DNA of 64,000 bases from positions 2,728,001 through 2,792,000 of the forward strand of contig FNSS01000001.1 of NCBI GenBank assembly GCA_900104855.1, in the 5' to 3' direction. This stretch comes from Rhizobiales bacterium GAS188. GTDB taxonomy: Bacteria > Pseudomonadota > Alphaproteobacteria > Rhizobiales > Beijerinckiaceae. This document shows, in pieces, positions 53,836 through 64,000 of this stretch; the first letter of the stretch is position 1; every line of letters begins with the position of its first letter. The translations under genes and the position numbers were made by a program. Under the pieces are notes generated by a model. The model searched no databases, was not told the origin of the DNA, and saw only the letters and a list, made by a program, of their open reading frames with translations.

Positions 53836-53944
53836 CGTGCCAAATTGAAGTGACTCGCCAAATTGAGGTGACCAAGTTGACCTGACTGGCAAGCCCGCCC
53901 GCGACCAGCATTGCGACATGACCGAACGAGACAGGAAGAGATCC

Positions 53945-55237
53945 ATGACCAGCTTCACCCGTCGCATCGCTCTTGCGGCCATGATCGCCGGAGGCGTCGG
54001 GCTCAGCCTGGCGCAGGCCCGCGCCGAAACCCAGATCAGCTTCTACTATCCGGTCGCGGTCGGCGGCCCGGTGACCAAGCTGGTCGACGGCATGGTGGCG
54101 GAGTTCGAGAAGGGCAATCCCGGCATCCGGGTGAAGCCGATCTATTCCGGCTCGTATCAGGATACGATCACCAAGATCCTGACCGCGCTCAAGGGCGGCG
54201 ATGCACCGCAAGTCGCGGTGGCGCTCTCGACCGACATGTTCACCCTGATCGATGAGGACGCCATCATCCCGTTCGATGAGGTGGTGAAGGGCGCGGACGG
54301 CAAGGCCTGGTTTTCGAGCTTCTATCCGGGCTTCATGGAGAACAGCCAGACGGGCGGCAAAACCTGGGGAATCCCGTTCCAGCGCTCGACCGTGGTGCTC
54401 TACTGGAACAAGGAGGCCTTCAAGGAAGCCGGCCTCGATCCGGACAAGGCGCCGGCGACCTGGGAGGAGATGCGCGACTTCGCCAAGAAGCTGACGAAGC
54501 GCGACGCGTCCGGCAACGTCACGCAATGGGGGATCGAGATTCCGTCTTCCGGCTTTCCCTATTGGTTGTTCCAGGGCCTCACCACGGAAGCCGGCGCCGT
54601 TCTCATGAATGCCGAGGGCACCAAGACCGCCTTCGACAATCAAGGGGTGGTCGAGGCGCTGCAATATTGGGTCGACCTGTCGCGGACGGACAAGACGCAC
54701 CCGCCGGGCATCGTCGAATGGGGCACGACTCCGAAGGACTTCTTCGAGAAGAAGACCGCGATGATGTGGACCACCACCGGCAATCTCACCAACGTCAAGG
54801 AGAACGCCAAATTCCCCTTCGGCGTCGCCATGCTGCCGGCGAAGGCCCGGCGCGGCTCGCCGACCGGGGGCGGCAATTTCTACCTCTTCAAGAAATCGAC
54901 GCCCGAGCAGCAGGCGGCGGCGGTGAAATTCGTCGGGTTCATGACGTCGCCGGAGCAGGCAGCAAGCTGGTCGATCGCGACGGGCTATGTGGCGACCTCG
55001 CCCGCCGCTTTCGAGACCAAGGCGTTGAAGGAATATCTCTCGACCTTCCCGCCGGCGGCGGTGGCGCGCGACCAGCTGCAATATGCGGTGGCCGAGTTCT
55101 CGACGCATGACAATCAGCGCGTCGTGAAGGCCTTGAACGACAATCTCCAGGCGGCGCTCAACGGCACGAAATCGCCGGCCCAGGCAATGAAGGACGCGCA
55201 GACCGAGGCCGACCGGCTGCTGAAGTCATATCAATGA
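53945..55237 (+). CDS. Extracellular solute-binding protein, UgpB-like (first copy)
   Basis: This 430-residue family-1 solute-binding protein has a signal peptide (MTSFTRRIALAAMIAGG to ARA). The mature protein starts ETQISFYYPVAVGGPVTKLV, then VKPIYSGSYQDTITKI and LYWNKEAFKEAGLDPDKAP. The late block GGGNFYLFKKST with FVGFMTSPEQAASWSIATGYV is typical of UgpB relatives, which bind glycerol 3-phosphate and glycerophosphodiesters. AGGAAGAG precedes the ATG at 53945. The next gene encodes a close paralogue. The ligand is an inference. Confidence 0.9.
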   Translation: MTSFTRRIALAAMIAGGVGLSLAQARAETQISFYYPVAVGGPVTKLVDGMVAEFEKGNPGIRVKPIYSGSYQDTITKILTALKGGDAPQVAVALSTDMFTLIDEDAIIPFDEVVKGADGKAWFSSFYPGFMENSQTGGKTWGIPFQRSTVVLYWNKEAFKEAGLDPDKAPATWEEMRDFAKKLTKRDASGNVTQWGIEIPSSGFPYWLFQGLTTEAGAVLMNAEGTKTAFDNQGVVEALQYWVDLSRTDKTHPPGIVEWGTTPKDFFEKKTAMMWTTTGNLTNVKENAKFPFGVAMLPAKARRGSPTGGGNFYLFKKSTPEQQAAAVKFVGFMTSPEQAASWSIATGYVATSPAAFETKALKEYLSTFPPAAVARDQLQYAVAEFSTHDNQRVVKALNDNLQAALNGTKSPAQAMKDAQTEADRLLKSYQ

Positions 55238-55361
55238 GACTTTTCGCCGGAGCTTTCGCGAGTGGAGTTTTCGCCAGTCTTGGCGAGTAGGGGGGACCCG
55301 GCGCAAAGGATCGAAAGCGACGAAGCTGACCAGACGAACGACAAGAGGAGGCTAAACCCCA

Positions 55362-56669
55362 ATGACAATGTCCACTCGGACGACCATCACCCGCCGCACC
55401 GCCGTCGCATCCGGTCTCGCGCTTGCCGCGGCCAAGGCCGTGCCGGCACGCGCCGCCGATATGGAGATCAGGTTCTATTACCCGATCGCCGTCTCGGGAC
55501 CGATCACCAAGCTGATCGACGGCTACGGAGCCGATTTCGAGAAGGAGAACCCGGGCGTCAAGATCAAGCCGATCTATGCCGGCGACTATGTGCAGACGAT
55601 CGGCAAGGCGCTGATCGCCGTGAAGGGCGGCGACATTCCCGAATGCGCCATCCTGCTCGCCGCCGATATCATGACGCTCACCGACGAGAACGCCGTCATC
55701 GCGCTCGATGATCTCGTCAAGACGCCGGAGGACAAGGCCTGGTTCGAGAGCTTCTATCCGGCCTTCATGGAGAATGCCCGCCTGAAGGGCAAAACCTATG
55801 CGATCCCCTTCCAGCGCTCGACGCCGGTGCTCTACTGGAACAAGGCGGCCTTCCAGGAAGCCGGGCTCGATCCGGAGAAAGGGCCGTCGACCTGGCAGGA
55901 AATGCTGGATTTCGCCAAGAAGCTCACCAAGAAGGATGCGAGCGGCAACGTCACCCAATGGGGGCTCGAGATCCCTTCCGACGGCAATACCTCCTGGCTG
56001 TTCACCGGCCTGACCACAGGTAGCGGCGTGCGCCTCATGAACGCCGACGGCAACAAGACGGTGTTCGACGATCCGCGCGTCGTCGAGGCCCTGCAATTCT
56101 ATCTCGATCTCTCCAAGGTGCATGGCGTGCAGCCTCCCGGATTGACCTCCTGGGGGACGGCGCCGCGCGACTTCCTGGAGAAGAAGCTCGCCATGATCTG
56201 GCAGACGACCGGCAACCTCACCAACATCAAGACCAATGCCAGCTTCCCGTTCGGCGTCGGCTTGCTGCCCAAGAAAGCGCAATTCGGCGCGCCGACCGGC
56301 GGCGGCAATTTCTACATCTTCAAGGGCATCGCGCCCGAGAAGCAGGCGATGGCCTTCAAATTCGTGAAGTTCATGACGCAGCCCGAGCGTGCCGCCGCCT
56401 GGTCGATCGCCACTGGTTATGTGGCGACCTCGCCGGCCGCCTATGCGACCGATGTGATGAAGGCCTATATCGGCGGCTTCCCACAGGCCGCGGTGGCGCG
56501 CGACCAGCTGCAATATGCGGTGCCGGAGATCACCGTGCATGACGGCCAGCGCGTCATGAAGGCGTTCAACGACAATCTGCAGGCGGCGCTCACCGGCGGC
56601 AAGACGCCGGAAGCCGCCATGAAGGATGCGCAGCGCGAGGCCGACCGCATCCTCAAGGACTACACCTGA
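55362..56669 (+). CDS. Extracellular solute-binding protein, UgpB-like (second copy)
   Basis: This 435-residue paralogue of the preceding gene is aligned with it over the full length, with more than half of the residues identical by eye. Shared blocks include YYPIAVSGPITKLIDG, IPFQRSTPVLYWNK, KDASGNVTQWGLEIPSDG and WSIATGYVATSPAAYA. The signal is twin-arginine-like (ITRRTAVASGLALAA). GAGGAGG precedes the start. ATG at 55362 or 55368 may be used. The ligand-site loops differ between the copies, e.g. ATM.LTDE for MFTLIDED and DGNTSWLFTG for SGFPYWLFQG, so ligands may differ. Confidence 0.9.
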   Translation: MTMSTRTTITRRTAVASGLALAAAKAVPARAADMEIRFYYPIAVSGPITKLIDGYGADFEKENPGVKIKPIYAGDYVQTIGKALIAVKGGDIPECAILLAADIMTLTDENAVIALDDLVKTPEDKAWFESFYPAFMENARLKGKTYAIPFQRSTPVLYWNKAAFQEAGLDPEKGPSTWQEMLDFAKKLTKKDASGNVTQWGLEIPSDGNTSWLFTGLTTGSGVRLMNADGNKTVFDDPRVVEALQFYLDLSKVHGVQPPGLTSWGTAPRDFLEKKLAMIWQTTGNLTNIKTNASFPFGVGLLPKKAQFGAPTGGGNFYIFKGIAPEKQAMAFKFVKFMTQPERAAAWSIATGYVATSPAAYATDVMKAYIGGFPQAAVARDQLQYAVPEITVHDGQRVMKAFNDNLQAALTGGKTPEAAMKDAQREADRILKDYT

Positions 56670-56691
56670 GGCCTTGGCGGACGCTTAAGTC

Positions 56692-57687
56692 ATGGTCGAC
56701 CAGCCGGTGAGGCGCGACAGCGTCGTCCCGCCCAGCCCCGCGACGCAGGGGTGGACGGGGCAGCGTGCCGCGGCGGCGCAAGGCGAGCCCGCCCGGCGCG
56801 GCGGGCTCGGCAAGCTGTTCCCGCGCCGCAGCGTCGAAGCCTGGCTGCTGCTCCTGCCATCGATCGTGCTGCTCGCGACCTTCACGCATATCCCGATCAT
56901 CTCGACCCTGATCGACAGCTTCTATTCGACACCGAAGGCCAACCGGCCCTCGCGCTTCGTCGGCCTCGCCAATTACGACGACATGTTCGCCGACCCGATC
57001 TTCTGGAAATCGCTGATCAACAACTTCATCTACGCGCTCGGCACCATCCCGCTCTCGGTCGCCATCGCGCTGGCCATGGCGATCTTCGTCAACGGCCGGT
57101 TGCCGGGCCGCGCCCTGTTGCGCATGGCCTATTTCACCCCGACCGTGCTGCCGATGATCGCGGTCGCCAATATCTGGCTGTTCTTCTACACGCCGAGCTA
57201 CGGCCTGCTCGACCAGATCGCCAAGGTCTTCGGCGGCCACGCCACCAATTGGCTCGGCTCGCAATCGACGGCGCTCGGCGCCATCATGGTCGTGACCGTG
57301 TGGAAGGAAGCCGGCTTCTTCATGATCTTTTATCTGGCGGCGCTGCAGCAGATCCCGCCCGACCTCAAGGAAGCAGCCGACATCGAAGGCGCCTCGCGCT
57401 TCACCTTCTTCCGCCGCGTCACCTGGCCGCTGCTCATGCCGGTGACGTTGTTCATCCTGGTCAATGCCGTCATCAACGCCTTCCGCACCGTCGACCACAT
57501 CTTCATCATGACGGGAGGCGGGCCGGACAACGCCACCAATGTGCTGCTCTTCCACATCTACGAGATCGGCTTCAAGTTCTGGGACCAGGGCTATGCGACG
57601 GCCTTGACGATGGTGCTGCTGGCGATCCTCGGCGGGCTGGCTCTGGTGCAGTTCCTGACGGCCGGCCGCAAGGTGCATTACCAATGA
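56692..57687 (+). CDS. ABC importer permease, UgpA-like
   Basis: This 331-residue CUT1 permease has about six membrane helices, after a Pro/Arg-rich cytoplasmic N-terminal tail of about 45 residues. The EAA loop is ADIEGASRFTFFRRVTWPLL. The gene ends in the ATGA overlap with the second permease. It follows the second binding protein by 22 bp. With UgpC and the second permease it should form the complete membrane complex. Confidence 0.93.
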   Translation: MVDQPVRRDSVVPPSPATQGWTGQRAAAAQGEPARRGGLGKLFPRRSVEAWLLLLPSIVLLATFTHIPIISTLIDSFYSTPKANRPSRFVGLANYDDMFADPIFWKSLINNFIYALGTIPLSVAIALAMAIFVNGRLPGRALLRMAYFTPTVLPMIAVANIWLFFYTPSYGLLDQIAKVFGGHATNWLGSQSTALGAIMVVTVWKEAGFFMIFYLAALQQIPPDLKEAADIEGASRFTFFRRVTWPLLMPVTLFILVNAVINAFRTVDHIFIMTGGGPDNATNVLLFHIYEIGFKFWDQGYATALTMVLLAILGGLALVQFLTAGRKVHYQ

Positions 57688-58511
57688 GCGCGGTCGATCG
57701 CTCACCGCCGCTGGCGCATGCGCTCGAGACCGCGGCCGCCTGGGCGCTCGGCCTGTTCTGGCTGGCGCCGCTGCTCTACGCGATCTGGACCGCCTTCCAT
57801 CCGGCGCTTTACGCCACGCATTTCGATCTATTGGCGCCGTTGACGCTCGAGAATCTCGACCGCGCCTGGCATGCGGCGCCCTTCGCGCGCTACTTCCTCA
57901 ACACCATCATCCTGGTGACGATGATCGTCGGCGCCCAATGCGTGTTGTGTACGCTCGCCGCCTTCGCCTTCGCGCGCTTCGAGTTCCGCGGCCGCAACCT
58001 GCTCTTCGCGCTGGTACTGATCCAGCTGATGATCGCGCCCGAGATCCTGGCGGTCGCCAATTACCAGACGGTGAGGGCGCTCGGCTTCGTCGACACGCTG
58101 GTCGGCGTCGCGCTGCCCTACCTCACCTCAGCCTTCGGCATCTTCCTGTTGCGCCAGGCCTTTCTCGGCGTGCCCAAGGATCTCGAGGAGGCGGCCCGCA
58201 TCGAGGGCTGCGGCACGCTCGGCGTCCTGTGGCGCGTCTATGTGCCTTTGGCGCGCCCCATCTATCTCGCCTATGGGCTGGTGCAGGTGAGCTTCCACTG
58301 GAACAACTTCCTGTGGCCGCTGATCATCACCAATTCGGTGGAGACGCGTCCGCTGACGGTCGGCCTCTCTGTGTTCTCCTCCACCGATCAGGGCATCGAC
58401 TGGTCGGTGATCACGGCCGCGACCATCATGACCTCGGGGCCGCTGCTGATCGGCTTCCTGCTCTTCCAGCGCCAATTCGTGCAGAGCTTCATGCGGGCCG
58501 GCATCAAGTGA
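57684..58511 (+). CDS. ABC importer permease, UgpE-like
   Basis: This 275-residue CUT1 permease has six helices, the first near 18-38 (AWALGLFWLAPLLYAIW). The EAA loop is EEAARIEGCGTLGVLWRVYVPLARPIY. It starts at ATG 57684, overlapping the previous stop by 4 bp. It is the last gene of the importer. The ynbA-like gene starts 71 bp downstream on the same strand, with no clear terminator between. Confidence 0.93.
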   Translation: MSAVDRSPPLAHALETAAAWALGLFWLAPLLYAIWTAFHPALYATHFDLLAPLTLENLDRAWHAAPFARYFLNTIILVTMIVGAQCVLCTLAAFAFARFEFRGRNLLFALVLIQLMIAPEILAVANYQTVRALGFVDTLVGVALPYLTSAFGIFLLRQAFLGVPKDLEEAARIEGCGTLGVLWRVYVPLARPIYLAYGLVQVSFHWNNFLWPLIITNSVETRPLTVGLSVFSSTDQGIDWSVITAATIMTSGPLLIGFLLFQRQFVQSFMRAGIK

Positions 58512-58582: not shown

Positions 58583-59182
58583 ATGACCCTTTATGAGCTG
58601 AAGCCGCGTTTCCAGGCGCTGCTGCGGCCACTTGCGGCCCGCCTTGCTGGCGGCGGCGTCACGGCGAATGCGGTGACCTTGACGGCGGCGCTCGGCTCCG
58701 TGCTGCTCGGCCTTGCGCTGTGCCGCTGGCCGGAGCAGCGCGCCCTCTTCCTGCTCCTGCCCGTCTGGCTGTTCATCCGCATGGCGCTCAACGCCATCGA
58801 CGGCATGCTGGCGCGCGAATTCGGGCAGAAGAGCCGGCTCGGCGCCTATCTGAACGAGCTCTGCGACGTCGTCTCGGATGCGGCGCTCAGCCTTCCCTTC
58901 TGTTTCATCGCCCCCTTCCGGCCGGCCGAGGTCGTGGTCGTGGTGCTGCTCGCCCTGATCGCCGAATATGCGGGTGTGATGGCGCCGCTGATCGGCGCCG
59001 AGCGCCGCTATGACGGGCCGCTCGGCAAAAGCGACCGTGCCCTGGTCTTCGGGGCGCTGGGGCTCTGGACCGGGCTTCGCTTGCCGATGCCGGATCTGCT
59101 GCACTGGCTGATGCCGCTCATGGGTATTTTGTTAGCCGCCACCATTTGGAACCGCGTGCGCCGGGGAATCGCCCAGATTTGA
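58583..59182 (+). CDS. ynbA: CDP-alcohol phosphatidyltransferase, YnbA type
   Basis: This inner-membrane enzyme of 199 residues is in the CDP-alcohol phosphatidyltransferase family, close in length and N-terminus (MTLYELKPRFQALLRP) to E. coli YnbA. It should place a headgroup alcohol on CDP-diacylglycerol. The catalytic motif is altered: N70-A-I-D73-G-M-L-A-R, then G87, N91, D95 and D99. Two of the four metal-binding aspartates are therefore Asn, as I recall for YnbA-type proteins in general. GGGGGCGAGG lies before the ATG. It opens the ynb-like operon. The headgroup is unknown. Confidence 0.92.
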   Translation: MTLYELKPRFQALLRPLAARLAGGGVTANAVTLTAALGSVLLGLALCRWPEQRALFLLLPVWLFIRMALNAIDGMLAREFGQKSRLGAYLNELCDVVSDAALSLPFCFIAPFRPAEVVVVVLLALIAEYAGVMAPLIGAERRYDGPLGKSDRALVFGALGLWTGLRLPMPDLLHWLMPLMGILLAATIWNRVRRGIAQI

Positions 59183-59269
59183 AGCGCATGAGCTGATCCA
59201 CTGCGTGGCGGACGGAATAGCGCTCGGCGCTGGCAAGTTCGTCGAGGCGAGCCGAAGAGGCGTTGAGCG

Positions 59270-61054
59270 ATGCGGCAGGCGCAAGAGCGGAATTTCACGA
59301 CGCATGACGGCGTCGAGCTCTTCTATCGGCTCTGGCCGGCGCTGACCGACAAGCCGCGCGGCGCCATCCTGCTCTTCCATCGCGGCCATGAGCATGGGCA
59401 GCGCATGGCGCATCTGGTCGACGAGCTGAACCTTAAGGACTTCGCCTTCTACGCCTGGGACGCGCGCGGCCATGGCCGTTCCCCTGGCGAACGCGGCTTC
59501 TCGCCCTCATTCGCGGTGAGCGTGCGCGACGTGCAGAACTTCGTCGATCATGTGGCCGAAACCGACGGCGTCGCCGTCGCCGACATGGCGGTGATCGCCC
59601 AATCGGTCGGCGCCGTGCTGATCGCGACCTGGGCCCATGACTATGCGCCGCGCATAAGGGCGATGGTGCTCGCTTCGCCGGCCTTCTCGGTGAAGCTCTA
59701 TGTGCCCTTCGCCCGCCTGGCGCTGCAGCTCAAGCGCAAATGGCGCGGCAATTTCTTCGTCAATTCCTATGTCAAGCCGCGCCTGCTCACGCATGACGCG
59801 CAACGCATCGCTTCCTATCGGAGCGATCCGCTGATCACTCGGGCGATCTCGGCCGATATCCTGCTCGGCCTCTACGAGGCGGGAGAGCGTGTGGTCACCG
59901 ATGCGCGCGCCATCACCATCCCGACGCAGCTGCTGATCTCGGGCTCGGATTGGGTGGTGCATCATTCGCCGCAGCACCGATTCTTCGTCAATCTCGGCGC
60001 CAGGGTGAAGGAGCGCCATGTGCTCAAAGGCTTCTTCCACGACACGCTCGGCGAGCGCGACCGTGCGGACGCGGTCGACAAGGCGCGGCGCTTCATCCTC
60101 GAGCAATTCGACGCGCTCGCGCCGCGGCTCAGCCTGCTCGATGCCGACAAGGCGAACTATACGCGCAATGAGGCCGACGACCTCGCCTCACCCTTGCCGG
60201 CCTTGTCGCCGCGCGGCCTCTACTGGGCGGCGACGCGGCTCGGCCTGAAGCTCGGCGGCCTGGTGTCGAAGGGCATCGCGCTCGGCCATCGCACCGGCTT
60301 CGATTCCGGCTCGACCCTCGATTATGTCTACCGCAACACGCCGTCGGGGCTCGGCGCCGTCGGGCGCGCCGCCGACAGGGCCTATCTCGACAGCATCGGC
60401 TGGCGCGGCATCCGCCAGCGCAAGCGCAATGCCGAGGAATTGATCGGCATCGCCATGGAGAAGCTGCGCGCTGGGGCTAAGCCCGTGCGCGTCCTCGACA
60501 TCGCGGCCGGCCATGGACGCTATGTGCTCGAGGCGCTGGCCGAAGGCGGCCCTAAGCCCGATTCCATCCTGTTGCGCGACTATAGCGATCTCAATGTCGA
60601 GAGCGGCACGAAGCTGATCGCCGAGAAGGGCCTTTCCGATATCGCGGGGTTCCGCAAAGGCGACGCCTTCGACCGCGCCGATCTCGCCGCCATCTCGCCG
60701 AGGCCGACGCTCGCCATCGTCTCGGGCCTCTACGAGCTTTTCCCCGACAACGACATGATCCGCGCCTCGCTTTCGGGCCTCGCCGAGGTGGTCGAGCCCG
60801 GCGCTTATCTCGTTTACACCAACCAGCCCTGGCACCCGCAGCTCGAGATGATCGCGCGGGCGCTGACCTCGCATCGCGGCGGGCAGGCTTGGGTGATGCG
60901 CCGGCGCAGCCAGGCCGAAATGGACGAGCTCGTGGCCGCGGCGGGCTTCCGCAAGCTCACCCAGCGCATCGACGAATGGGGCATCTTCACCGTCTCGCTG
61001 GCGCTGCGAGAGGATGCGAGCCGCGAGGATCCCGACGGGAAGAGCGAAGCTTGA
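59270..61054 (+). CDS. ynbC: Two-domain alpha/beta hydrolase-methyltransferase, YnbC type
   Basis: This 594-residue protein matches E. coli YnbC in size and plan. The N-terminal alpha/beta hydrolase (monoacylglycerol-lipase like) has Ser112 in IAQSVGAVL, Asp227 in SGSDWVV and His257 in GFFHDTLGE. The C-terminal half (about 380-580) is a class I methyltransferase with VLDIAAGHGRYVLEAL (408-423) as the SAM-binding strand-loop. It follows ynbA by 87 bp and its stop overlaps the next start. The hydrolase may act on a lipid ester and the methyltransferase on a headgroup, but neither substrate is known. Confidence 0.92.
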   Translation: MRQAQERNFTTHDGVELFYRLWPALTDKPRGAILLFHRGHEHGQRMAHLVDELNLKDFAFYAWDARGHGRSPGERGFSPSFAVSVRDVQNFVDHVAETDGVAVADMAVIAQSVGAVLIATWAHDYAPRIRAMVLASPAFSVKLYVPFARLALQLKRKWRGNFFVNSYVKPRLLTHDAQRIASYRSDPLITRAISADILLGLYEAGERVVTDARAITIPTQLLISGSDWVVHHSPQHRFFVNLGARVKERHVLKGFFHDTLGERDRADAVDKARRFILEQFDALAPRLSLLDADKANYTRNEADDLASPLPALSPRGLYWAATRLGLKLGGLVSKGIALGHRTGFDSGSTLDYVYRNTPSGLGAVGRAADRAYLDSIGWRGIRQRKRNAEELIGIAMEKLRAGAKPVRVLDIAAGHGRYVLEALAEGGPKPDSILLRDYSDLNVESGTKLIAEKGLSDIAGFRKGDAFDRADLAAISPRPTLAIVSGLYELFPDNDMIRASLSGLAEVVEPGAYLVYTNQPWHPQLEMIARALTSHRGGQAWVMRRRSQAEMDELVAAAGFRKLTQRIDEWGIFTVSLALREDASREDPDGKSEA

Positions 61055-62409
61055 GCATAGTGACACCCACGGCTTCGGCGGAGGAGGAGCGGCCGACCCG
61101 GGCGGCGCTGCTATGGCTCGCCGGCCTCGGTGCGTTCTTCTACCTCAGCTATGGCGGGGCAAACTGGCTCGCTTCGCTGCACGCCCATGTGCCGGCGATC
61201 GCCTTCGCCTGGGAGCGGCAAGTGCCGTTCCTGGATTGGACCATCCTGCCCTATTGGTCGACCAACGCCTTCTATGCGGCTTCCGTCTTCGTCTGCGCCA
61301 CGCGGCGCGAGCTCGACACCCATGTGCGGCGGCTGCTGACGGCGCAGATCGTCGCGGTGATCTGCTTCATCATCGTGCCCTTGCGCTTCTCCTGGCCGAA
61401 GCCCGACACCTCGGGGCTGTTCGGCTTCCTGTTCGCGGCACTCGGCGCCTTCGACAAGCCGTTCAACCAGGCCCCGTCGCTGCATGTGGCGCTGACGGTG
61501 ATCTTATGGAGCCTTTATGTCAGGCATCTGCCGCGCCGCGTCCTGCCGCTCTTCCATGCCTGGTCGGCCCTCGTCGTCGCCTCGGTGATGACCACCTTCC
61601 AGCACCATTTTGTCGACATCCCGACCGGGGCGCTGCTCGGCCTTTTCTGCGTCTGGACCTGGCCATGGGAAGGTGAGCCGCCGCTGGCGCGCCTCTCGCT
61701 CACGCGCTGTCCCGACCGGCTGTGGCTTGCGCGCTATTACGGCGCAGGCGCGGTCACGCTCGCCACAGTGGTGATCGCGGCCTTCAGCCTCGGCGCCGAC
61801 GGCGCCTGGTTATGGCTGCTCTGGCTGGCCTTCGCGCTCGCCATGGTGGCCTCGGGTTATGCGGCGATCGGCCCCGCTTTGTTCCAGAAGCGGCGGGATG
61901 GCGGCATGAGCGTGTCGGCCCGCCTCCTGCTCGCGCCCTATCGGCTCTGCGCCTTCGTGAATTCCAGGCTCTGGACCTATGGCGACGCCAAGCCGGCGCT
62001 GATCGCCGAGGGCCTCCATATCGGCAGGTTTCCGACCAGTGCCGAGCTGCGCCGGGGAAAGTTCCGCTGCGTCGTCGACCTGACGGCGGAATTCGCGGCG
62101 CCGCGCTTTGCAAGTAACTTGGCAGGTCGATGGCAGTCGGTGCCGATGCTCGATCTCGTGGCACCGCCCCCGGACGCACTCATCGAAGCCGCGACCGCAA
62201 TCGAGCGGGCGCGGCCACAGGGGCCGATCCTCGTCTGTTGCGCGCTCGGTTATGGGCGCAGCGTCGCCGCCGTCGCGACCTGGCTGATCCGCAGCGGGCG
62301 GGCGCGAGATGTGGCCGAGGCCGCGGCACAACTGAAGGCAGCGCGGCCGAGGCTTGCCTTGTCGCGAGCTCAGCTCGCAGCCATCGCGGAGGCGGTGCGT
62401 GAACCCTGA
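61051..62409 (+). CDS. ynbD: Membrane PAP2 phosphatase fused to dual-specificity phosphatase, YnbD type
   Basis: This 452-residue protein has an N-terminal PAP2 membrane domain with APSLHVALTVILW (PSLH, about 142-145) and FQHHFVDIPTGALLG (His and Asp of the third PAP2 motif). It is joined through extra helices (about 230-275) to a C-terminal dual-specificity phosphatase with LVCCALGYGRSVAAVATWL, in which Cys397 and Arg403 form CX5R. This is the plan of E. coli YnbD. The start is TTG at 61051, overlapping the ynbC stop, or GTG at 61060. It could remove phosphates from a phosphatidyl headgroup. Confidence 0.92.
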   Translation: MSIVTPTASAEEERPTRAALLWLAGLGAFFYLSYGGANWLASLHAHVPAIAFAWERQVPFLDWTILPYWSTNAFYAASVFVCATRRELDTHVRRLLTAQIVAVICFIIVPLRFSWPKPDTSGLFGFLFAALGAFDKPFNQAPSLHVALTVILWSLYVRHLPRRVLPLFHAWSALVVASVMTTFQHHFVDIPTGALLGLFCVWTWPWEGEPPLARLSLTRCPDRLWLARYYGAGAVTLATVVIAAFSLGADGAWLWLLWLAFALAMVASGYAAIGPALFQKRRDGGMSVSARLLLAPYRLCAFVNSRLWTYGDAKPALIAEGLHIGRFPTSAELRRGKFRCVVDLTAEFAAPRFASNLAGRWQSVPMLDLVAPPPDALIEAATAIERARPQGPILVCCALGYGRSVAAVATWLIRSGRARDVAEAAAQLKAARPRLALSRAQLAAIAEAVREP

Positions 62410-62845
62410 GGAACGCGCCATCTGCGTGGTGATGGCGGCGCTGCTCCGGCGCGGCCGCCTGATCCATGGTCTCAGCCTGCCCGTCACCCTCCTGGCTCTC
62501 GTTGCGGCGCCGCTCGTCGCGCTCGAGCTCGACATACGTCTTGGTTCGGCTGTTCTGGTCGCGACTGTGATCGCCGGGTTTTGCGAGGCGGTGCTCGCCG
62601 CGCGCGTCGCCTTCGATGCCGATCTCTTCGAGCGCCTCGGCGCCGGCGACCTCGACCTTCCCACCCTCGACGCCGCGCTCGCAAGGCTGCGTCTCGCGCC
62701 AGCCGCAAAGCTCGGACGGCCCCTCGATGCGCGCCTCGCCGGCGCCAGGCGCCTATTGGCGCTGCAGCTCACCGCGCTCCTCTTGCAACTCATCCTCGTT
62801 ATGGCCTGGCTCGTCCTGTTCCGGCTCTCGGGAGGGCAGATATGA
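62399..62845 (+). CDS. Small membrane protein within the ynb-like operon
   Basis: I do not recognise this 148-residue protein. It has a hydrophobic stretch of about 60 residues near the start (HGLSLPVTLLALVAAPLVAL, then VLVATVIAGF), a charged middle (FDADLFERLGAGDLDLPTLDAALARLRL in part) and a C-terminal helix (LQLTALLLQLILVMAWLVLF). It starts with GTG at 62399, overlapping ynbD by 11 bp, and its stop overlaps the next gene (ATGA). Translation is thus coupled on both sides, which supports it as a real gene and a part of the system. Confidence 0.8.
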   Translation: MNPEERAICVVMAALLRRGRLIHGLSLPVTLLALVAAPLVALELDIRLGSAVLVATVIAGFCEAVLAARVAFDADLFERLGAGDLDLPTLDAALARLRLAPAAKLGRPLDARLAGARRLLALQLTALLLQLILVMAWLVLFRLSGGQI

Positions 62846-63510
62846 TCGCCCGCTGCGCGGCGGGACTGCTCGCGGCGCTCGTCACCATTCTGGCGCGGCT
62901 CGTGACCGGCGTCAGGGCCGATTGGCGGGGCTGCCTGCCGGAGCTGCGCCAGCGCATCTATTTCGCCAATCACGGCAGCCACGGCGATTTCGTGCTGGTC
63001 TGGACGGTGCTGCTGCCGAGCTTGCGCGCCGTCACACGTCCGGTCGCCGGCGCCGACTATTGGGACAGGCCCGGCTTGCGCCGCTTCATCGGCCGCAATG
63101 TCTTCAACGCCTTGATGATCGACCGCAATCCGACGCCGAGCGGGCCGCATCCGGTAGCGCTGATGGCGGAGGCGGTGCGGCAGGGCTCCTCCCTGATCCT
63201 GTTCCCGGAAGGCACGCGCAACACCACCGATCAGCCGCTATTGTCGTTCCGCAGCGGGCTCTTCCATCTCGCCAAGGCCGCAGCCGAGGTCGAGCTCGTG
63301 CCGGTCTGGATCGACAATATCGCGCGCGTGATGCCCAAGGGTGAGATGTTCCCGATCCCGCTCCTGTGCGGCGTGATCTTCGGTGAGCCGCTGCGGCTCG
63401 AAGAGGGCGAACAGAAGGACGCTTTTCTGGATCGCTCCCGTGCCGCCCTGCTGGCGCTGCGGCCCCGAGATTCCTCCAGAGAAGATTCCTCCAGGGACAT
63501 GCATCCATGA
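62842..63510 (+). CDS. 1-acylglycerol-3-phosphate acyltransferase family protein (PlsC-like)
   Basis: This 222-residue acyltransferase has the HX4D motif (His44-Asp49 in NHGSHGDF), the FPEGTR motif at 121-126, and a membrane segment at the N-terminus. PlsC enzymes acylate lysophosphatidic acid to phosphatidic acid at the inner membrane. It overlaps the small membrane gene and ynbB by 4 bp each. E. coli ynbABCD does not include a plsC-like gene, so this operon is an extended form. The acceptor may be a special lysolipid. Confidence 0.93.
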   Translation: MIARCAAGLLAALVTILARLVTGVRADWRGCLPELRQRIYFANHGSHGDFVLVWTVLLPSLRAVTRPVAGADYWDRPGLRRFIGRNVFNALMIDRNPTPSGPHPVALMAEAVRQGSSLILFPEGTRNTTDQPLLSFRSGLFHLAKAAAEVELVPVWIDNIARVMPKGEMFPIPLLCGVIFGEPLRLEEGEQKDAFLDRSRAALLALRPRDSSREDSSRDMHP

Positions 63511-64000
63511 ACATGCCGCGCGAGAGCTTCATGCTGTTCGGGGGCGTCGTGGCGGTGCTCCTCCTCGCCTCGGTGATCGGGGCCGTCCTGGCGAAGCGGG
63601 CGGGGCCGGAGCCCAATGCGGCGATCGAGAACCTTAATGCCCGCGTCAAGGCCTGGTGGGTGATGGTGCTGCTGATCGCGCTCGCCTTCCTGTTCGGCAA
63701 GGGCGGCGTCATCCTGCTCTTCGGCTTCGCCTCCTTCACGGCCCTGCGCGAATTCATGACGCTCACCCCGACCCGGCGCGGCGACCATTGGGCGTTGGCG
63801 GCCGTGTTCTTCGTGAGCCTGCCGCTGCAATATTATCTCGTCTGGATCGAATGGTACGGGCTCTACACCGTCTTCATCCCGGTCTATTGCTTCCTGCTCC
63901 TGCCTATCATCGCCGCATTGCGGGGCGACACCACCCATTTCCTCGAACGCATCGCCTTCGTGCAATGGGGGTTGATGATCTGCGTCTTCTGCGTGAGCCA
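63507..64000 (+). CDS. ynbB: CDP-diglyceride synthase-like membrane protein, YnbB type (partial)
   Basis: The first 164 residues of a protein cut by the window end. It opens MNMPRESFMLFGGVVAVLLL and has several membrane helices: AWWVMVLLIALAFLFGKGGV, LFGFASFTALREF, and FFVSLPLQYYLVW in order. This fits the N-terminal half of the CdsA family, and in this operon the YnbB paralogue, which forms CDP-diacylglycerol from CTP and phosphatidic acid. The CdsA signature near the C-terminus lies outside the window. It starts in the ATGA overlap with the acyltransferase gene. Confidence 0.88.
   Translation, partial: MNMPRESFMLFGGVVAVLLLASVIGAVLAKRAGPEPNAAIENLNARVKAWWVMVLLIALAFLFGKGGVILLFGFASFTALREFMTLTPTRRGDHWALAAVFFVSLPLQYYLVWIEWYGLYTVFIPVYCFLLLPIIAALRGDTTHFLERIAFVQWGLMICVFCVS

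Follow-up and report, generated by a model that had tools for sequence, protein, structure and literature searches.

A complete Arc1-type phospholipid gene cluster in Rhizobiales bacterium GAS188, with an asparagine pair in its transferase homologue

The closest described relatives of the locus analysed here come from Pseudomonas aeruginosa and Escherichia coli. In P. aeruginosa, the six genes arc1A to arc1F (PA2541-PA2536) were published in 2022 as an "antagonism resistance cluster" with a defence phenotype, and were described as specialised and phospholipid-related (PMC8926400). The phenotype concerns antagonism by type VI secretion systems (T6SS), lipase effectors included (PMC8926400, PMC12663445), and deletion of arc1A in P. 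aeruginosa without its own H1-T6SS sensitised the cells to attackers bearing lipase effectors (PMC12663445). The portions of PMC11888443 that were accessible mention Arc1 once, without a mechanism. The second relative is the ynbABCD operon of E. coli K-12 (b1408-b1411), for which overproduction of YnbB raised the level of MPIase and did not replace CdsA (PMC6362211). Here we report on a six-gene lipid operon (genes A to F) at the right-hand end of a 64,000-nucleotide stretch of the Rhizobiales bacterium GAS188 genome (contig FNSS01000001.1, positions 2,728,001 to 2,792,000), hereafter the window, whose numbering is used throughout. The operon itself is confirmed: six genes lie on the + strand at 58583-64448, the last of them, gene F, extending 448 bases beyond the window end. 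Judged by order and homology, these six genes are the Arc1 cluster, matching arc1A-F, and we consider it probable that they form an accessory inner-membrane phospholipid pathway, standing beside the housekeeping one, that helps the cell to withstand phospholipase attack by other bacteria.

The identification with Arc1 depends on a reference locus that could be tied to the published genes. Within the 198 genomes of the family to which genome G146 belongs, the exact arc1A primer sequence was found in a single one, a P. aeruginosa-like genome (G503) placed among Pseudomonas in the gene B tree, and at its locus L143 the arc1F primer sequence lies at the start of gene F. Because the published arc1A and arc1F primer sites both lie there, L143 was taken as PA2541-36. 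Its gene order, A-B-C-D-E-F, is that of the window, and the window proteins A, B, C, D, E and F are 56, 69, 49, 40, 52 and 67% identical to their counterparts. The window cluster thus resembles P. aeruginosa Arc1 in its six genes, their order and their domain plans, with each gene matched by the family profile at 40-69% identity; it differs in having Ugp-like neighbours upstream, while the P. aeruginosa cluster is known to be regulated by Gac/Rsm. All six reading frames claimed by the initial annotation are present. The tight overlap that it ascribed to all six genes was found at B/C (4 nt), C/D (11 nt), D/E (4 nt) and E/F (4 nt), the TTG start of gene C overlapping the gene B stop, and not between A and B, which are separated by 87 nt. 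Completion of the last gene to the right, which it had called for, gave an intact gene F of 313 amino acids. Downstream of it, the next long frame (365 amino acids) is on the opposite strand.

Comparison with E. coli K-12 shows ynbA, ynbB, ynbC and ynbD to be homologues of A, F, B and C, at 49, 38, 58 and 34% identity, respectively. The E. coli operon is without D and E, and its order corresponds to A-F-B-C, with F placed between A and B. The kinship to ynbABCD first proposed for the locus is upheld. The acyltransferase and the small protein, initially taken as additions to what is known of ynb, are part of a six-gene form already published as arc1A-F (PMC8926400). The enzyme types and motifs of a full alternative phospholipid pathway were recognised again in our analysis, which shows the gene content, the gene order, the homology to PA2541-36 and catalytic motifs that are intact in B, E, F and the protein tyrosine phosphatase (PTP) loop of C. 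The pathway that would link them is something we infer, and head-group transfer by A is its uncertain step. The statement that the lipid product is undescribed agrees with our own search, as none was found in open-licence PubMed Central papers. Nor, in the accessible portions of that literature, did we find assays of any Arc1 or Ynb pathway step, save for the effect of YnbB overproduction on MPIase.

Gene A (58583..59182, + strand) encodes a 199-amino-acid CDP-alcohol phosphotransferase homologue of the arc1A/ynbA type, scoring 33.2 bits against the PF01066 cut-off of 22. The signature of this family, DxxDGxxAR(x8)GxxxDxxxD, contains four aspartates (PMC8633023). In gene A it reads N70-x2-D73-G-x2-A-R-x8-G87-x3-N91-x3-D95, and the corresponding pattern NxxDGxxAR(x8)GxxxNxxxD was found in all 102 distinct Arc1A-family sequences, E. 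coli YnbA included. As the protein passes the PF01066 cut-off and departs from the four-aspartate signature, we treat it as a homologue and have not filed it as a conventional member. The control proteins gave the opposite picture: all 25 other PF01066 proteins from eight genomes have D-D-D-D (4/4 in the host genome and 21/21 in seven Arc1-bearing genomes, five of these 21 matching only after the spacing around the glycine was loosened), while the seven Arc1A copies of those same seven genomes again have N-D-N-D. The closest solved structures by sequence are those of phosphatidylinositol-phosphate synthase (PIPS; 6h53, 5d91/5d92), from which gene A differs both in its NCBIfam score (56.7 vs 170) and in the asparagines at two of the four aspartate positions. 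A limited search of open-licence PubMed Central papers found no description of this asparagine pair. One further gene bears on its distribution. In genome G043, away from the A-B-C-D cluster, a divergent A-like gene (frame L149:3-863 at locus L190, contig G043:C1260) lies directly upstream of an E-F pair; it shares 31% identity over 109 residues with that genome's own arc1A, has A-I in place of A-R, and also shows N-D-N-D. This gene, which falls outside both control sets, counts against a strict confinement of the asparagine pair to Arc1A.

What such a site would do can be approached from the enzyme MjPSS, in which all tested changes of the signature aspartates reduced or eliminated activity, and in which extra metal rescued D62N, the equivalent of N91, not at all or negligibly (PMC8633023). 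With two of the four signature aspartates replaced by asparagine in 102/102 sequences, it is uncertain whether gene A carries out head-group transfer of the ordinary kind, and, given the MjPSS precedent, a gene whose loss has a phenotype on lipase exposure would carry a site predicted to be strongly impaired. Gene A might accordingly be a non-working transferase whose N/N site serves lipid binding or scaffolding, in an operon devoted mainly to the recycling of lyso-lipids by the lipase part of B, the acyltransferase E, and F. The uniform N/D/N/D of the Arc1A family against the D/D/D/D of the other PF01066 proteins, and the impaired MjPSS variants with D62N unrescued by metal, speak for this explanation, which we nevertheless regard as unlikely: the other signature residues (D73 G74, A77 R78, G87, D95, D99) do not vary across 25 aligned gene A sequences, nor does a GPxGKSDRA stretch, as fits a strongly constrained enzyme, and deletion of arc1A gives a clear phenotype (PMC8926400, PMC12663445). 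A bolder proposal, which we put forward only tentatively, is that Arc1A stands for a novel catalytic class among the CDP-alcohol phosphotransferases, its metal site being rebuilt with asparagine at positions 1 and 3, and would, with its constant partner B, make and methylate an undescribed phospholipase-protective lipid in many Pseudomonadota, GAS188 among them. The asparagine pair of the G043 A-like gene hints that such a class would reach beyond Arc1.

The identity of the remaining domains, and the question of whether the cluster duplicates housekeeping functions, were addressed by profile searches. Pfam backs the domain plans initially assigned to five of the six genes, the small protein being without a Pfam match. 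The most conventional explanation would be that these are ordinary PgsA, PgpB and CdsA proteins, present as the sole genome copies in an unusual place. They do have Pfam families in common with them, but the host genome has, elsewhere, one other PF01148 gene (cdsA) and four other PF01066 genes, these four bearing the canonical signature, so that genes A and F are extra to the housekeeping set, in agreement with the extra phospholipid gene set postulated at the outset. Moreover, the NCBIfam equivalog cut-offs listed for A and F, that of PIPS included, were all missed widely (archaetidylinositol-phosphate synthase, 72.9 vs 180; pgsA, 21.8 vs 109.1; pssA, 20.3 vs 107; phosphatidate cytidylyltransferase, 98 vs 385). 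The extra family members and the missed cut-offs together rule out A and F as sole-copy PgsA and CdsA, and the explanation as a whole is hardly conceivable. An anti-phage system was also considered and rejected; PADLOC gave one weak match only (mad2, 26 bits, to the methyltransferase part of gene B), which we took as generic methyltransferase similarity.

Gene B (59270..61054, + strand; arc1B/ynbC type, 594 amino acids) fuses a monoacylglycerol-lipase-like hydrolase (PF12146, 229 bits) to a Methyltransf_20 domain (PF12147, 500 bits). Its putative triad S112, D227 and H257 is invariant across 14 aligned sequences; among 102 relatives, the elbow serine and the histidine are present in all, and the acid follows the strict pattern in 97, the five misses still keeping an aspartate. 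The S-adenosylmethionine (SAM) motif D-[IVL]-A-x-G-H-G-R-Y likewise occurs in 102/102 (94 with a stricter pattern). In the predicted structure (mean predicted local distance difference test [pLDDT] score, 84), the best agreement of residues 1-283 is with monoacylglycerol lipases (Z 30.2; root-mean-square deviation [rmsd] 2.6 over 271 aligned residues); the bacterial and human enzymes 6eic, 7ozm and 8ptc share this predicted fold (Z about 30) and the catalytic triad, whereas gene B differs from them by the methyltransferase fusion and by a nucleophile elbow that reads A-Q-S-V-G in 96/102 relatives. Fold-search listings covered only this hydrolase part and the phosphatase part of gene C; as to the substrate of the methyltransferase, a profile search of the PDB returned only "methyltransferase type 12" and similar entries, at E 4e-4 or weaker.

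Gene E (62842..63510, + strand; arc1E type, 222 amino acids) is a PlsC-like acyltransferase (PF01553, 55.7 bits) with HGSHGD and FPEGTR motifs. HX4D and FPEG motifs are the hallmarks of PlsC-type acyltransferases, and HX4D together with FPEGTR was present in all 93 distinct relatives. Gene F (63507..64448, + strand, the window holding the part to 64000; L004:8507-9448; arc1F/ynbB type) is a CDP-diacylglycerol (CDP-DAG) synthase (PF01148, 218.5 bits). The CDP-DAG synthase signature, S-x-K-R...K-D...H-G-G...D-R-x-D, was found in 93/94 distinct relatives, the exception being at locus L063.

Gene C (61051..62409, + strand; arc1C/ynbD type, 452 amino acids) combines a PAP2-like membrane domain with a C-terminal dual-specificity phosphatase (DSP) domain. 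The whole protein falls just below the Pfam cut-offs (PAP2_3, 26.6 vs 27; DSPc, 28.5 vs 33.5), and the N-terminal part alone passes that of PAP2_3 (27.4 vs 27). PAP2 phosphatases are characterised by the motifs KX6RP, PSGH and SRX5HX3D. Gene C has PSLH (97/98 relatives, with PSFH in one) and S-x2-T-T-x-Q-H-H-x2-D (95/98), in which V, I or T replaces the usual PAP2 arginine; this part may be akin to Aur1-type inositol-phosphorylceramide synthases. The PTP loop, CALGYGRS in gene C, is found as CALGxxRS in 96/98 relatives, the other two rows (L085 and L063) being short as the loci end there. Both this CX5R loop and the predicted fold (pLDDT 91) place the C-terminal part among the DSP/PTP phosphatases, residues 311-452 matching Tk-PTP best (Z 17.7) and also PTPMT1 (3rgq, 3rgo; Z 16.5, rmsd 2.1, 139 residues), whose aligned chain is without a counterpart of the PAP2-like membrane domain. 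PTPMT1 is the mitochondrial phosphatidylglycerophosphate (PGP) phosphatase; since several protein phosphatases lie within 1-2 Z, the likeness is no proof of a lipid substrate for gene C. Gene D (62399..62845, + strand, GTG start; arc1D type) encodes a small membrane protein of 148 amino acids with hydrophobic stretches at its N- and C-termini. It had no Pfam or NCBIfam match, the best hit of a homology search was at E 0.48, and four columns, the start methionine among them, are invariant over 23 sequences.

From these motifs and the gene logic, the substrates and the order of steps may be inferred as follows: (i) E would acylate lyso-phosphatidate, (ii) F would convert the acylated product to CDP-diacylglycerol, (iii) A would join the phosphatidyl unit to an acceptor, probably a phosphorylated one, (iv) C would remove the phosphate or move the head group, and (v) B would deacylate monoacyl or lyso lipids and methylate part of the product. 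The outcome would be either a minor lipid that resists lipases, or a quick rebuilding or clearing of damaged lipid.

The cluster recurs as a unit. PF12147, the methyltransferase domain of gene B, was found in 27/398 sampled genomes of the phylum. Out of 567 confirmed loci, the named ones are the 80 best and come mostly from Pseudomonas. Locus counts do not equal independent events. We examined 101 loci, 100 of them distinct by gene B and 92 reaching far enough on both sides. All six genes were present at 87 of these 92 full-length loci, the others having ABCD (2), ABEF (2) or AB (1), and with this frequency among distinct loci the six-gene set is not due to chance. Same-strand adjacency was the rule for A-B (93/98, with 4 further pairs divergent), B-C (91/96), C-D (88/96), D-E (89/96) and E-F (90/94). 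In seven chosen genomes, relatives of gene F were found in 7/7 at 57-100% identity, where the second CdsA-like gene reached 32-45%, and gene C was found in 6/7. The pairs A-B, C-D and E-F persist through rearrangement: in G204, about 40 kb separates a C-D pair from A-B-E-F, and in G043 and G253 an E-F pair sits on a different contig. In the gene B tree (37 rows picked from 103), a fork of 96/95, marked open, unites the sequence from the window with genomes of its own family and order and with Methylosinus, Ochrobactrum and Shinella, and there was no clear sign, in these 37 rows, of recent transfer into the host genome.

Several loci depart from the common plan. Natural module breaks are seen in the rearranged clusters L054 (G324), L112, L130, L042 and L044, where A or, in L054, E-F is divergent. 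On a short Acetobacteraceae metagenome contig (L063:1968-4394), A and B are in one open frame, a candidate fusion for which an assembly error is possible. A second frame matching the acyltransferase model lies just 5' of arc1A in 12 loci (L046:3195-3980, L060, L065, L066, L070, L076, L097, L107, L132, L137, L138 and L139), and the L046 copy, the only one checked, is PlsC-like by family. Finally, L057:6208-8361 (G391) has a 717-amino-acid open frame between genes B and C.

Upstream of the window cluster, at 53918-58511 and on the same strand as gene A, four ATP-binding cassette (ABC) transporter genes of the glycerol-3-phosphate type end 71 nt 5' of gene A; by best NCBIfam model, in each case below its cut-off, two resemble UgpB, one resembles UgpA and one UgpE. 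Co-transcription with gene A and a link through the substrate are possible. As a part of the system, the transporter was rejected, for in the flanks of 32 of the 101 loci the sole cluster to reach four loci, the smallest size listed, was an ABC ATPase, the flanks being only 3-4 kb at many loci. These neighbours and the presence of CDP-DAG-dependent lipid-synthesis enzyme types, with the motifs of E and F intact, would suit the general auxiliary phospholipid synthesis proposed by the initial annotation. On this view, the operon would supply a different membrane lipid under particular conditions of growth, phosphate or envelope, with the defence seen in Pseudomonas as a by-product. Such a role is possible but doubtful, as the Ugp-like genes do not recur, the patchy spread of PF12147 fits an accessory trait, heat, peroxide, salt and detergent left P. 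aeruginosa arc1 mutants no different from the wild type, and arc1 is expressed at a very low basal level before Gac/Rsm becomes active (PMC8926400).

An accessory pathway that protects against phospholipase attack is, in our judgement, the better account, and the host genome has a further feature that was counted in its favour. It encodes an Arc3A-like PF10101 (DUF2339) protein (G000:C1:1214853-1218056), a member of Arc3, the Pseudomonas partner system. Arc3A (PF10101) was found in 14/27 Arc1 genomes vs 71/371 others (Fisher p 3e-4), a figure that ignores kinship and has no weight as proof. A number of points weigh against the protective role. The defence phenotype was published for P. aeruginosa, and Gac/Rsm, the system that controls Arc1 in Pseudomonas, is described as confined to gamma-Proteobacteria (PMC8926400). 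In P. aeruginosa, loss of Arc1 raised attacker survival modestly, the Tle3 and ColA cut-offs were each passed by a single gene of Arc1 (PMC8926400), and the role of arc1A looked auxiliary beside arc3A (PMC12663445). The asparagines at two metal-site positions argue against ordinary transferase chemistry for A. The cluster is, moreover, not always kept whole: G296 has kept A-B and has F alone on another contig, where no E adjoins it, and a search for C in that genome found none. In G043, the divergent A-like gene before E-F indicates possibly a related A-E-F unit and not half of a split Arc1. The E-F pairs of both G043 and G253 may be of this kind, although no such motif was found in G253; the split reading holds up better in G204, where it concerns C-D, and in G296, where it concerns F without E.

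Overall, what is surprising about this locus is not the existence of the operon, but the active site of gene A and the missing product. GAS188 holds a complete copy of Arc1 outside Pseudomonas, and Arc1 is a system with a known phenotype for which no chemistry was found in the open-licence literature. The comparison provides several handles, namely the asparagine pair in the transferase homologue, the stable pairs A-B, C-D and E-F, the candidate A-B fusion and the monoacylglycerol-lipase-type domain, and thereby opens to testing the question of which lipid Arc1 makes or mends. It also suggests that a membrane-defence pathway may have a reduced relative in the ynbABCD operon of E. coli.

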